DNA of 64,000 bases from NCBI RefSeq assembly GCF_036010485.1, contig NZ_CP108568.1, positions 6,370,001 to 6,434,000 on the forward strand, in the 5' to 3' direction. Position numbers and translations under genes: made by a program. The DNA is from Streptomyces sp. NBC_01198 (GTDB lineage: Bacteria > Actinomycetota > Actinomycetes > Streptomycetales > Streptomycetaceae). Below, in pieces: positions 43,142 through 47,470 of the stretch. The notes under the pieces are model-generated. The model ran no database searches. It was not told the DNA's origin and saw only the letters and a program-made list of their open reading frames with translations. The stretch's first letter is position 1. Every line of letters begins with the position of its first letter.

Positions 43142-43585
43142 TCAGTTCTGGTTGAAGAAGCCGTCGCCGCCGCGGCGGCTGTCGGCGTTGAGCACCGAGT
43201 AGTCGGTCGGGGTCAGCAGGAAGACCCGGGTGGCCACCCGCTCGATGGAACCGCGCAGGCCGAAGGTGAGGCCCGCGGCGAAGTCGACCACGCGCTTGGC
43301 GTCCGCCGACTCCATACCGGTGAGGTTGACGATCACCGGCACACCTTCACGGAAGAGCTCGCCGATGCCGCGTGCGTCCCGGAAGCCGTCCGGGGTGACG
43401 GTGGCGATGCGCCGGCCCTGCTCCTGCGCCGTCTCGGTGGCGACCCGCACGCGCGGATCGGTCACCCAGGTCTCGGCACGCTCGGAGCCCTCGCCGTAGT
43501 CGGCGTACTCCTCGTCGTAGTAACCCTCGCCACCGTTGTCGTCGACGAGGCCCAGCCAGGCACTCGCCCGTCGAACCGATCCCAT
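43142..43585 (-). CDS. SepF-like protein
   Basis: A 147-residue SepF-family protein. The start [20 protein letters not shown] with the acidic linker [15 protein letters not shown] is followed by the SepF fold: [40 protein letters not shown] and [20 protein letters not shown], then RVFLLTP. SepF tethers FtsZ to the membrane. Streptomycetes have one SepF in the ftsZ cluster and additional SepF-like proteins (SflA/SflB in S. venezuelae) that restrain Z-ring formation. The isolated position here, away from ftsZ, fits the second type. ATG 43585 has GAGAGGAGG 7 nt upstream. The N-terminal amphipathic helix is short. Confidence 0.9.
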
Positions 43586-43959
43586 GGACGCCTCCTCTCT
43601 CACACGCGGTCAGTACCGTCCGTCCGCAAGTCCTATCGTCGTCCATGATGTCGATGATGCGCCAAGCGGATAGCCGCCACAGAGCCGAGTTGTGACGGTA
43701 CTGGCACACACGATAGTGGCGTACCGTCAGGCCGCCGGAGGTGTAGGGAAGGTGACGATCCGATGGGAACGCATTTCACGTCCGAGTGACGACCAGGGCC
43801 GTACGGCCCTGCGCAGGGCGTCTGCCCCGTCCTGCGGGTACCCATCATGCATTCCCGGACGATGATCCGACAGGCGATAACATGACTGGCTGTCGGTTGA
43901 AGGAGTTTCGGCGTGACCCGCGGGAATTGCGGGGCACGCGGGGTCCGCGGGGGGAATGA
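43586..43959. other. Divergent intergenic region, SepF-like / DUF5685
   Basis: A 374-bp gap. CAGGGCCGTACGGCCCTG at 43794-43811 is a perfect 18-bp palindrome that could be an operator or a weak terminator. CATTTCACGTCC at 43772 resembles half of a parS-type site but lacks the other half. No small gene with convincing composition is visible. Confidence 0.55.
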
Positions 43960-45234
43960 ATGTTCGGCGTCATCAGGCCGTGCCGCCATCGAATGTCCGA
44001 GGGAATGGCCGCCTCCTGGCTCGCGCATCTGTGCGGGCTGTGCCTGGCGTTGCGGGACGGGCACGGGCAGGTCGCGAGAATCGCCACCAATTACGACGGC
44101 CTGATCATCTCGGTCCTGGTCGAGGCGCAGACATCCGCGACGGCTGAGCAGCGCAGGACGGCGGGACCCTGCCCGCTGCGCGGCATGCGCACGGCCCCGG
44201 TCGCCACCGGCGCGGGCGCGCGGCTGGCCGCGGCGGTGTCGCTGGTGCTTGCGTCGGCGAAGATGCGCGACCACGTCGATGACCGGGACGGCGCCTACCG
44301 GCGGCGGCCGGTGGCCGCCGCGGCCCGTGGGGTGGCCCGCCGCTGGGACAGGGCGGGCGCCAGGACCGGCGGGGACCTCGGCTTCGACACCGCGGTGCTG
44401 GTCGACGCGGTCGACCGGCAGGGCGCGATCGAGGCGGCGGCCGGGGCGGGCACACCGCTGCTGACCGTCACCGAGCCGACCGAGACCGCCACGGCCGCGG
44501 CCTTCGCGCACACCGCCGTGCTCGCGGGCCGCCCCGCCAACAGGGCGCCGCTGGCGGAGGCGGGCCGGCTGTTCGGGCGGCTCGCCCATCTGCTCGACGC
44601 GGTCGAGGACCTGGCCGAGGACACCCGCTCCGGCGCCTGGAACCCGCTCACCGGCACCGGCACCGGCCTCGCCGAGGCGCGCCGGCTGTGCGACGACGCG
44701 CTGCACGGCATACGACTGGCCCTGCGCGACGCCGACACCGCCGGCTCGGCCGCGGGCCGGCTGGCCCACGCGCTGCTGGTGCACGAGCTGGGCCGGTCGG
44801 TGGACCGGGTGTTCGGCGGCGGCGGTTGCGCGCACGGGCCGCAGACGGGCGCGGGAGCGGCGGCCGCGGACATCGCGGTCACGGACATCGCGGTCGCGGA
44901 CACGGCCATCCGGGGCAGCGGCAGTCCGTTCGGCGGGGATCCGTACGCGCCGGGCGCTCCCGGCGCTCCGGGCCAGAGCCCTTACGGGCCCGGTGGCCCC
45001 GGTTTCCCCGGCGGCTTCCCGCCGCCGGAACCGCCGCGGCGGCGCGGGCTGCTCGCCGGCTGCCTGGTCTACACCGGGCTGTGCTGCACCTGCCAGTTGT
45101 GCTGCAGCGAGCACGACGACGCGTGGAGCGGACAGCGCAGGGACGCGTGGTGCAACGACTGCGACTGCGATTGCGACTGCTGCAGTTGCTGTGACGGATG
45201 CGACGGTTGCGATTGCTGCGACTGCGGGTGCTGA
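43960..45234 (+). CDS. DUF5685 family protein with Cys/Asp-rich C-terminal tail
   Basis: A 424-residue actinobacterial protein of the DUF5685 family. The N-terminal domain is conserved: MFGVIRPCRHRMSEG, LAHLCGLCLALRDGHGQVAR, GPCPLRGMRTAPVA and FDTAVLVDAVDRQGAIEAAA, with Cys8, the CGLC motif and Cys in GPCP as possible metal ligands. A helical middle part runs to about 280, then a Pro/Gly linker with PGAPGAPGQSPYGPGGPGFP. The last about 55 residues are extraordinary: GCLVYTGLCCTCQLCC, then an alternating Cys/Asp array (CNDCDCDCDCCSCCDG and CDCCDCGC) with more than 20 Cys. Strong metal binding is inferred. ATG 43960 follows a G-rich ribosome-binding site. Function unknown. Confidence 0.88.
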   Translation: MFGVIRPCRHRMSEGMAASWLAHLCGLCLALRDGHGQVARIATNYDGLIISVLVEAQTSATAEQRRTAGPCPLRGMRTAPVATGAGARLAAAVSLVLASAKMRDHVDDRDGAYRRRPVAAAARGVARRWDRAGARTGGDLGFDTAVLVDAVDRQGAIEAAAGAGTPLLTVTEPTETATAAAFAHTAVLAGRPANRAPLAEAGRLFGRLAHLLDAVEDLAEDTRSGAWNPLTGTGTGLAEARRLCDDALHGIRLALRDADTAGSAAGRLAHALLVHELGRSVDRVFGGGGCAHGPQTGAGAAAADIAVTDIAVADTAIRGSGSPFGGDPYAPGAPGAPGQSPYGPGGPGFPGGFPPPEPPRRRGLLAGCLVYTGLCCTCQLCCSEHDDAWSGQRRDAWCNDCDCDCDCCSCCDGCDGCDCCDCGC

Positions 45235-46676: not shown

Positions 46677-47470
46677 CCGCCCGGCAGGCGCCGGCCACCG
46701 CCGTACGGCCACTGCACCTGGCCGTCCAGTTGCCCGCGGACGGCGAAGGGTCAGGGCCGCAGGCGGACTTCGCCGCCTGCGCCGCGCTCGCGCTGGCCGC
46801 AGAGCGCGGCCTCTTCGACTTCCTGCTGCTCACCGGCGGCGCCTCGCCGCCGGCCGCCGGCGCGGCCGCGGCGGGGGAGCCGCCCGGGCCCGGCGGCTGG
46901 GCGGGACCGGGCCCCTGCGGCCCGGAGCCGGTCACCGTGCTGCACGCGCTGGCCGCGCTCACCAGCAGGATCGGGCTGGCCGTCGCGGTCCCGGTGACGG
47001 CCGCCGGCCGCGAACCGTACGACCTGGCCCGCCGGATCGCCGCCCTCGACCGGCTCAGCGGCGGGCGGGCGGGCGGTCCGCCGGGGCGGTTCGGCGATCC
47101 CGCGGGTCCGCAGGGGCGGCCGGTGGTGCTGGACTTCGGCGGTACGGCCGAGGTGCTGATCACCGGCCGCCCGGCGGCTGGACGGCGCGGCGGGCGGCGG
47201 GCACGGGTGCTGTCCCGGTTCGACCTGGCCGCGGGTGCCGCCGGCTCCGCCGCGACCGCGCGCGACCTCGCCGACCGGCTGCACGCGCAGGTGCAGAGCG
47301 CCGCGACGGACGGTTTCGTGCTGCGCCCCGACCCGGCGGCCGCAGGTCGCGGCCTGGACGCCTTCGTCGAGCGGGTGGTGCCGCTGCTCCAGCAGCGCGG
47401 CTCGCTGCGGACCGCGTACACGGGGACGACGCTGCGGGACCACCTGGGTCTGCCCCGGCCGGTCGGATAG
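46673..47470 (+). CDS. Second shortened luciferase-like monooxygenase
   Basis: A 265-residue paralogue of the preceding gene, starting at a GTG that overlaps its stop (GTGA). It retains VRPLHLAVQLPADGEGSGPQ, ACAALALAAERGLFDFLLLT, LHALAALTSRIGLAVAVPVT and PYDLARRIAALDRLSGGRAG at the N-terminus, and FVERVVPLLQQRGSLRTAYT plus GTTLRDHLGLPRP at the C-terminus. It lacks even more of the barrel than the first gene (family length is about 400-450). Either both form a compact heteromeric enzyme or both are decaying duplicates. Reading frames are open with normal codon bias, which argues against simple decay. Confidence 0.78.
   Translation: MTARQAPATAVRPLHLAVQLPADGEGSGPQADFAACAALALAAERGLFDFLLLTGGASPPAAGAAAAGEPPGPGGWAGPGPCGPEPVTVLHALAALTSRIGLAVAVPVTAAGREPYDLARRIAALDRLSGGRAGGPPGRFGDPAGPQGRPVVLDFGGTAEVLITGRPAAGRRGGRRARVLSRFDLAAGAAGSAATARDLADRLHAQVQSAATDGFVLRPDPAAAGRGLDAFVERVVPLLQQRGSLRTAYTGTTLRDHLGLPRPVG

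Follow-up and report, generated by a model that had tools for sequence, protein, structure and literature searches.

The DUF5685 gene and its cysteine-rich end

The window, i.e., the whole stretch of 64,000 nucleotides that was analysed, contains a complete gene for a DUF5685 protein. The DUF5685/PF18937 profile matches residues 1-233 of this protein with 73.4 bits against a cut-off of 26.7, which places it in the family; in a Pfam scan at E up to 1, DUF5685 was the sole entry, with PF00348 absent and no match to the Cys tail. Its features are given below, the conserved residues being taken from two alignments: A2, with 61 Clostridial/Coriobacterial and 7 actinomycete rows, and A3, with 67 rows in all, including 60 actinomycete ones.

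43960..45234, + strand: DUF5685 gene, 424 aa plus stop, complete in the window
43960..44814, + strand: catalytic-like domain, residues 1-285, predicted isoprenoid-synthase (trans-isoprenyl diphosphate synthase) fold (AlphaFold2, Foldseek, VIA-align)
44032..44043, + strand: C25-G-L-C28 motif, with C25 and C28 in 68/68 rows of A2 and 67/67 rows of A3
44170..44172, + strand: C71, third invariant Cys of the domain (A2, A3)
44269..44283, + strand: D104-H-V-D-D108, first Asp-rich (FARM-like) motif (A2, A3)
44596..44622, + strand: D213xxxD217xxxD221, second Asp-rich (SARM-like) motif, then N228-P229 (A2, A3)
44842..45009, + strand: Pro/Gly-rich linker, residues 295-350, predicted disordered (pLDDT <50)
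45040..45159, + strand: residues 361-400, the ordered part of the tail (pLDDT 81-88 in ten-residue blocks; alignment)
45151..45231, + strand: drifting Cys/Asp/Gly tail, residues 398-424, of which 402-424 are predicted disordered (composition; AlphaFold2)
45223..45231, + strand: terminal C-G-C, a C-X-C end (sequence)

The last 55 residues contain 19 Cys and the last 62 contain 20, somewhat fewer than the more than 20 in about 55 residues given in a preliminary description, whose quoted tail string, CNDCDCDCDCCSCCDG, is present in the translation. The last 27 residues (398-424, nt 45151-45231) read CNDCDCDCDCCSCCDGCDGCDCCDCGC and consist of 14 Cys, 8 Asp, 3 Gly, 1 Asn, and 1 Ser; as far as composition goes, they fit the Cys-rich, low-aromatic metallothionein type. 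Among the 510 stop-to-stop frames of at least 60 aa in the window, the densest 47-residue stretch (17 Cys) is that of the DUF5685 frame, with a runner-up at 12. The stretch upstream of the drifting end has the consensus RRGxxxGCxxxxGxxCTCQxCCxxxxxPWSGxRR in the actinomycete alignment, and residues 361-400 of the window protein form a hydrophobic Cys-containing helix (364-376) followed by GLCCTCQLCC..AWSGQRRDAWC; this segment, ordered in the AlphaFold2 model, may dock on the DUF5685 domain. The last 23 residues of the protein have a pLDDT <50.

Such an unusual end could have been the product of a frameshift or of a sequencing artefact. This was rejected, as the matches in 22 genomes are free of internal stops, with no frameshift seen in them at about 45050, where a shift had been considered in the preliminary description, and as the 77 actinomycete proteins described below are all Cys-rich at their end; moreover, the tail DNA in its other frames would encode mostly A/T/V/I, or R/L interrupted by a stop. 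A DNA-level repeat expansion as the sole cause is unlikely, since the codon mix differs between lineages yet Cys is kept: the last 50 codons of the actinomycete tails contain 1132 TGC and 146 TGT, and the last 30 codons of the DnaJ tails presented below contain 514 TGC and 216 TGT. Read at the level of their sequences, the actinomycete tails are under protein-level constraint.

A SepF-family cell-division protein (PF04472, E 8.3e-23; window 43142-43603, - strand) is encoded next to the DUF5685 gene, in divergent orientation. Of the 77 actinomycete DUF5685 loci, 34 have a SepF-like motif divergently upstream, and in two annotated actinomycete records the DUF5685 neighbours are other than SepF; the gene neighbourhood in actinomycetes was dropped as a clue to function. 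On the other side lie a Luciferase-like monooxygenase (PF00296, 45639-46676, + strand), an apparent second, similar monooxygenase copy in another frame, ending at 47470 (judged by eye), and a serine protease with an alpha-lytic-type prodomain (PF00089 and PF02983, 47774-48808, + strand).

Predicted fold and conserved residues of the domain

With the AlphaFold2 model of the window protein, Foldseek gave MoeN5 as the top match (E 3.9e-4) and 13 matches at 0.001 or better. VIA-align, which re-examines Foldseek's own matches only, gave a Z of 21.6 and an rmsd of 2.7 over 243 residues against the polyprenyl synthase 4jxy. Going by their titles, the 50 listed entries are isoprenoid synthases, if we take 9a4c (ACP-HEPS2) to be one from its name. 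An Eggerthella homologue was modelled from 68 sequences (pLDDT 94.8, pTM 0.91), and its 50 listed VIA-align entries are again isoprenyl/isoprenoid synthases, with Z up to 17.8. For this second model, Foldseek returned nothing at E 0.001 or better (best E 2.3e-3), and most of the 50 rows shown were MoeN5 or farnesyl/polyprenyl synthases, the others including some terpene synthases and a single UbiA homologue. Both models stand above a Z of 14, the best value that VIA-align typically gives to a mostly helical model when nothing clearly matches it. From these models, we consider it nearly certain that the DUF5685 domain has the isoprenoid-synthase (trans-prenyltransferase) fold, the predicted window protein falling within this all-alpha class.

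At the sequence level, homology to the polyprenyl synthases is insignificant: the PF00348 profile does not take in the protein and no significant PDB relative was found by sequence. A sequence search gave polyprenyl synthetase at E 0.37 and a PDB profile search gave trans-hexaprenyltranstransferase as the best match at E 0.075, both over the second Asp motif region. When compared with 18 polyprenyl synthases by hhalign, the second-motif helix was the only part aligned (29 columns, P 0.0087, probability 4.6%), the helix of D213-D221 being weakly set on the SARM helix of these enzymes. A relationship with squalene/phytoene synthase was dropped, as the profile gave no useful match. A shared fold proves no function, and inactive members of the isoprenoid-synthase fold exist.

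The conserved residues of DUF5685 fit an enzyme, as far as alignments can tell. C25, C28, C71, D46, D104, E158, D213, D217, D221, and N228 are identical in all rows of A2 and A3, and D108 is Asp in all rows but a single Glu in each of the two. All 60 actinomycete rows of A3 have both Asp-rich, putative metal/diphosphate motifs, apart from a single Glu at D108. The CGLC motif that had been noticed near the N-terminus corresponds to residues 25-28, and both its Cys are invariant in the rows examined. As for C71, it is found in a C-x2-H context in 58/61 Clostridial/Coriobacterial rows (A2) and in a C-x2-R context in 60/60 actinomycete rows (A3); by analogy with known enzymes, C25, C28, and C71 may be Zn ligands. 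The Gln of the FQxxDD signature of synthases, invariant in a further alignment (A4), is replaced in the DUF5685 rows of A2 by Tyr (61/61 Clostridial/Coriobacterial) or His (7/7 actinomycete), and DUF5685 differs in this from the ComQ type, if the Gln before the SARM in the ComQ-type family is taken as the FQxxDD-signature position.

Cysteine tails in cis and in trans

A whole-protein search of 41 genomes found DUF5685 in 22, every one from the window's genus. The PF18937 profile matched in 30/35 genomes of the window's genus (5/35 being without a match), 47/246 of the class, and 18/296 of the phylum, the phylum sample partly overlapping with the class sample; among 14 named control genomes, DUF5685 was seen in Thermotoga maritima only. 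We then considered 77 distinct actinomycete proteins, picked by the N-terminal motif and translated to the first stop. All 77 have a Cys-rich tail, with a mean of 16.6 Cys in the last 50 residues (sd 2.7, range 8-22), on average 4.5 CC and 5.4 CxC in the same stretch, a total of 7 His across their last 35 residues, and F/W/Y in the last 27 residues of 12/77 tails; the expectation that the number of Cys would be kept while their order drifts is borne out across this set. Fragments G246 and G280:C45 were left out of the actinomycete class set, and the complete L068 and L079, whose start is cut, fall outside the 77 because of the pattern, both with Cys tails. Three actinomycete records from a plasmid collection (L201-L203) have 15, 7, and 8 Cys in their last 50 residues, a further plasmid-collection match, H3, being left out.

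Some genomes carry two copies. In three actinomycete genomes, DUF5685 occurs as a pair of paralogues (L032/L077 in G190, L033/L075 in G094, and L039/L076 in G254), of which one has a long Cys tail and the other combines a short tail with a CGMWRPRW segment; G221 likewise has two copies (L035 and L078). L091, a homologue from another class of the phylum, has an apparently broken frame, due to an assembly error or a decaying gene, and no Cys tail was found at this locus.

Homologues without a cysteine tail, which had been named at the outset as evidence against the preliminary description, do exist as far as the tail in cis is concerned: this is the case for the Clostridial and Coriobacterial DUF5685 proteins examined. 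Six Coriobacterial-type homologues (L080-L085, with Eggerthella and Collinsella among their nearest named relatives) match the full DUF5685 profile and have no tail; in four of the six, the next gene codes for a DnaJ-domain protein with its own terminal cysteine string, and a DnaK-like frame comes after the DnaJ gene in all four. DUF5685 is also over the cut-off in 110/196 genomes sampled from one Clostridial class. We compiled 132 Clostridial/Coriobacterial loci: 80 named ones, including Eggerthellaceae, Collinsella, and Clostridia (the 80 of 480 most similar to an Eggerthella query), 50 from 49 genomes of the class sample (the 30 best-scoring and 20 mostly low-scoring places), and 2 more, with L254, L255, and L256 repeating L185, L194, and L139, respectively.

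A J-domain protein with at least 4 Cys in its last 45 residues lies directly downstream in 114/132 loci (111/129 without the repeats); as a background, the first 80 loci contain 963 other frames of at least 200 residues, of which 50 have 4 or more Cys in their last 45. The two genes mostly overlap: relative to the DUF5685 stop, the DnaJ start, as chosen by a script, falls between -60 and +30 nt in 102/110 cases (median -8), and the four partners that were scanned match PF00226 (E 2.9e-19, 1.3e-23, 1.2e-20, and 1.2e-19), with both J domain and cysteine string present. The other loci comprise five in which the Cys tail is there but the J motif is unrecognisable or the frame broken (L193, L289, L291, L295, and L300, by eye), three cut by contig ends, and ten without an adjacent partner; two further calls of a Cys tail without J motif, L278 and L282, turned out by eye to be wrong-frame artefacts.

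A profile built from 27 partners was searched in seven partnerless genomes, those of L149, L162, and L301 being left out. Four of them (G713, G757, G736, and G689) encode elsewhere a separate TPR-like protein that is devoid of a J domain and whose last 45 residues include 14-18 Cys, for example with the tail CCCCCGDDCCGTCCQLYVCDSCCECMGGDLIPCC, strikingly similar to the actinomycete one; the gene is 13-20 kb from DUF5685 on the same contig in three of the four, and the one protein scanned matched TPR_2 weakly (21.2 bits, the cut-off being 27). In G591, a cysteine-tail protein of 164 residues is encoded near DUF5685, and the search of G632 and G618 gave no cysteine-tail protein. In 18 DUF5685-negative genomes, chosen from the 85 of the class sample (seven weaker matches being left out), the best matches to the partner profile have no cysteine tail, one of them (G571) being cut by its contig. 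The window's own genome gave four matches, none of which has any Cys among its last 50 residues, and so no cysteine-tail DnaJ. The J-less TPR-like Cys-tail proteins (L336 1258-1659 on the - strand, L337, L338, and L341) form a separate family in DUF5685-positive Clostridia.

Given this gene order, co-occurrence, and conservation, DUF5685 works, very probably, with a cysteine-rich tail as its functional partner, fused to it in actinomycetes (in cis) and carried by a separate protein elsewhere (in trans). The pairing could also mean that a degenerate, non-catalytic isoprenoid-synthase fold acts as a scaffold for Hsp70/Hsp40 assembly or for metal-cluster delivery, as DnaJ is the usual neighbour and 35/80 loci have a DnaK motif no more than 2.5 kb downstream; we find this very improbable, since the Asp residues of both motifs are kept from Clostridia to actinomycetes (bar D108 to Glu in one row per alignment), which disfavours a dead enzyme.

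The partner tails differ in character. We chose 110 DnaJ proteins for at least 4 Cys in their last 45 residues; their last 30 residues hold 4-10 Cys, and the Coriobacterial tails, like many Clostridial ones, are hydrophobic, e.g., PGLICCGIWCCGPTLCRFIGF, with a hydropathy of 1.35. Their very ends are biased too: 52/110 DnaJ tails terminate in CC, when 7.8 are expected from shuffles, and 49/77 actinomycete tails terminate in C-X-C, when shuffling the last 20 residues predicts 9.8, CC being found in 1/77 against 18.0 expected. The bias persists in thinned sets (27/61 DnaJ tails for CC, 9/22 actinomycete tails for C-X-C), thinning being the sole correction for phylogeny applied to these end-motif counts.

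These data bear on metal binding by the tail, the main rival to the function that we propose below. The tail would be a metallothionein-like site for Zn, Cu, or another soft metal that it stores, senses, or delivers, the metal going to the DUF5685 active site or to DnaJ, with prenyl chemistry, if any, on another substrate. With their abundance of Cys, acidic residues, and Gly, their CC and CxC spacing, and their scarcity of aromatics, the actinomycete tails look the part, and so do the J-less Clostridial tails (CCCCCGDDCC...). We nevertheless hold this reading to be unlikely: the partner tails of Coriobacteria, and many of those of Clostridia, are hydrophobic, with F/W/Y within the last 30 residues of 102/110 DnaJ tails, selection for C-X-C or CC at the exact terminus is unexpected for a sponge, and a prenyltransferase fold is predicted for the partner enzyme. 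The metallothionein-like sponge of the preliminary description keeps the composition of the actinomycete tail in its favour, and it sits poorly with an isoprenoid-synthase fold predicted with both Asp-rich motifs, with the confidently ordered residues 361-400, and with the many trans partners that end in a hydrophobic stretch with aromatics. The predicted fold and the two motifs suggest prenyl chemistry rather than metal storage.

A possible S-prenylation system and its known counterparts

DUF5685 is nearly absent from the open-licence literature that we searched: it appeared only within a domain list, in PMC9403866, and PF18937 was unmentioned. The open-licence papers on metallothioneins contained nothing specific to such tails, and no precedent was met in the open-licence literature searched for a prenyltransferase-fold protein associated with cysteine-string tails and a chaperone. 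A bacterial precedent is ComQ, described in PMC5331326 as having some homology to farnesyl diphosphate synthases and as prenylating ComX, the product of the next gene. According to PMC13290415, the trans-IDS-like enzymes known so far act on Trp. It adds that they share a Gln before the second motif, that PalQ needs a terminal acceptor residue, and that Zn activates the acceptor thiol in eukaryotic protein prenyltransferases. A farnesylated Hsp40 is on record (PMC8262983), and cysteine isoprenylation had gone undetected in prokaryotes according to a 2017 review.

The same fold and gene logic, the replaced Gln, the three invariant Cys, and the poly-Cys partners lead us to propose S-prenylation of the tail. 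DUF5685 would be a ComQ-like prenyltransferase that S-prenylates its cysteine-tail partner and so anchors proteins to membranes, a tentative reading to which we give not quite an even chance; for the chemical step itself, the S-prenylation of tail cysteines by DUF5685, argued by analogy, our confidence stays somewhat under even. In such a scheme, an allylic diphosphate would be held by Mg2+ on the two Asp-rich motifs, C25, C28, and C71 would hold a Zn2+ activating the acceptor thiol, and the prenyl group would be moved from the diphosphate to the thiols of the tail Cys, modification probably starting at the C-terminal dicysteine and moving inwards. In actinomycetes, the tail, on its flexible linker in cis, would anchor the enzyme itself to the membrane once prenylated; in Clostridia and Coriobacteria, it would anchor the DnaJ co-chaperone, in the manner of the lipid-anchored eukaryotic cysteine-string DnaJ, and the anchored DnaJ would there have a chaperone role.

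Several observations run against S-prenylation. The end of the actinomycete tail is acidic and aromatic-poor, nearer to a metal sponge than to a membrane anchor, a C-X-C end is without the final residue of the CXCX form that GGTase II modifies, and no partner was found for 5/132 loci (two genomes searched, three left out). Besides, every characterised trans-IDS-like peptide prenyltransferase modifies Trp (PMC13290415), and 69/77 actinomycete tails have at least one Trp in their last 70 residues. These last two facts would suit a ComQ/PalQ-like Trp prenyltransferase acting on a Trp of the ordered segment (..AWSGQRRDAWC), with the Cys serving for metal or redox purposes. We judge this highly improbable, as 64/110 DnaJ tails are Trp-free in their last 30 residues and yet have 4-10 Cys there (Cys being the selection criterion), and as DUF5685 has Tyr or His at the position of the Gln that precedes the SARM and is linked to Trp recognition.

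The tail Cys could also be lipidated otherwise, by S-acylation, or be part of a mere hydrophobic anchor, with DUF5685 making or using a free isoprenoid at the membrane. Eukaryotic CSP/DNAJC5 is indeed a DnaJ protein with a palmitoylated Cys-rich domain (PMC10903463), and the fold of DUF5685 is shared with enzymes making free prenyl diphosphates. However, the FQxxDD Gln of chain-elongating synthases is Tyr or His in DUF5685, and it would be left unexplained why tail and DUF5685 go so closely together, so that we see this as quite improbable.

If S-prenylation by DUF5685 is true, it represents an unrecognised bacterial route for attaching lipid groups to cysteines, and the system would be widespread, with DUF5685 in 110/196 genomes of the Clostridial class and 30/35 of the window's genus. 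Eukaryotic protein prenyltransferases (FTase, GGTase II) have a fold different from that predicted for DUF5685. A rather speculative joint reading, which we hold to be doubtful, is that of a native bacterial Cys prenylation on the isoprenoid-synthase fold instead of the eukaryotic protein-prenyltransferase fold, giving membrane-anchored Hsp40/Hsp70 machines that would be an independent counterpart of Rab-type double prenylation and of the eukaryotic cysteine-string protein. With the right predicted fold, catalytic-type residues, and a poly-Cys partner, bacterial Cys prenylation becomes directly testable in common laboratory organisms; should the chemistry prove to be metal binding, the pairing of prenyltransferase fold, cysteine string, and chaperone would still be without precedent in the literature searched.

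Among known systems, metallothioneins resemble the actinomycete tail end in being Cys-dense, low-aromatic, and marked by CC/CxC, but the DUF5685 tail is fused to an enzyme-like domain and the partner tail of other lineages is often hydrophobic. The trans-isoprenyl diphosphate synthases (PF00348) and MoeN5 share with DUF5685 the fold and two Asp-rich motifs in the same order; unlike them, DUF5685 has no GGKRxRP-type motif in its consensus (by eye), and its Eggerthella model has a beta-hairpin bearing an invariant Cys. Such a Cys-bearing hairpin is not known from trans-isoprenyl diphosphate synthases. ComQ, PalQ, and the ChrPC P domain (PMC5331326, PMC13290415) belong, as DUF5685 is predicted to, to the isoprenoid-synthase superfamily and have a FARM, and the peptide modified by ComQ is the product of the adjacent gene. 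Their target is Trp and a Gln precedes their SARM, which is altered, whereas DUF5685 has three SARM-region Asp and a Tyr/His; DUF5685 further differs from the ComQ type, as described, by its three invariant Cys and Cys-rich partner, the absence of ComQ, PalQ, and Ord1 from the structure lists being no evidence either way. With FTase and GGTase II/Rab (PMC13290415), the likeness would lie in the Zn-thiolate chemistry that we propose by analogy and in the ends: GGTase II modifies CXCX, CCXX, and XXCC ends, which the CC ends of the DUF5685 system match and its C-X-C ends resemble, short of the last residue of CXCX. Finally, the Clostridial/Coriobacterial partner is comparable to CSP/DNAJC5 and to the farnesylated Hsp40s of the Ydj1 type, as it combines a J domain with a C-terminal cysteine string; the actinomycete DUF5685 form, without a J domain, is unlike CSP/DNAJC5, and it is in the J domain and the string that the likeness of the partner resides.
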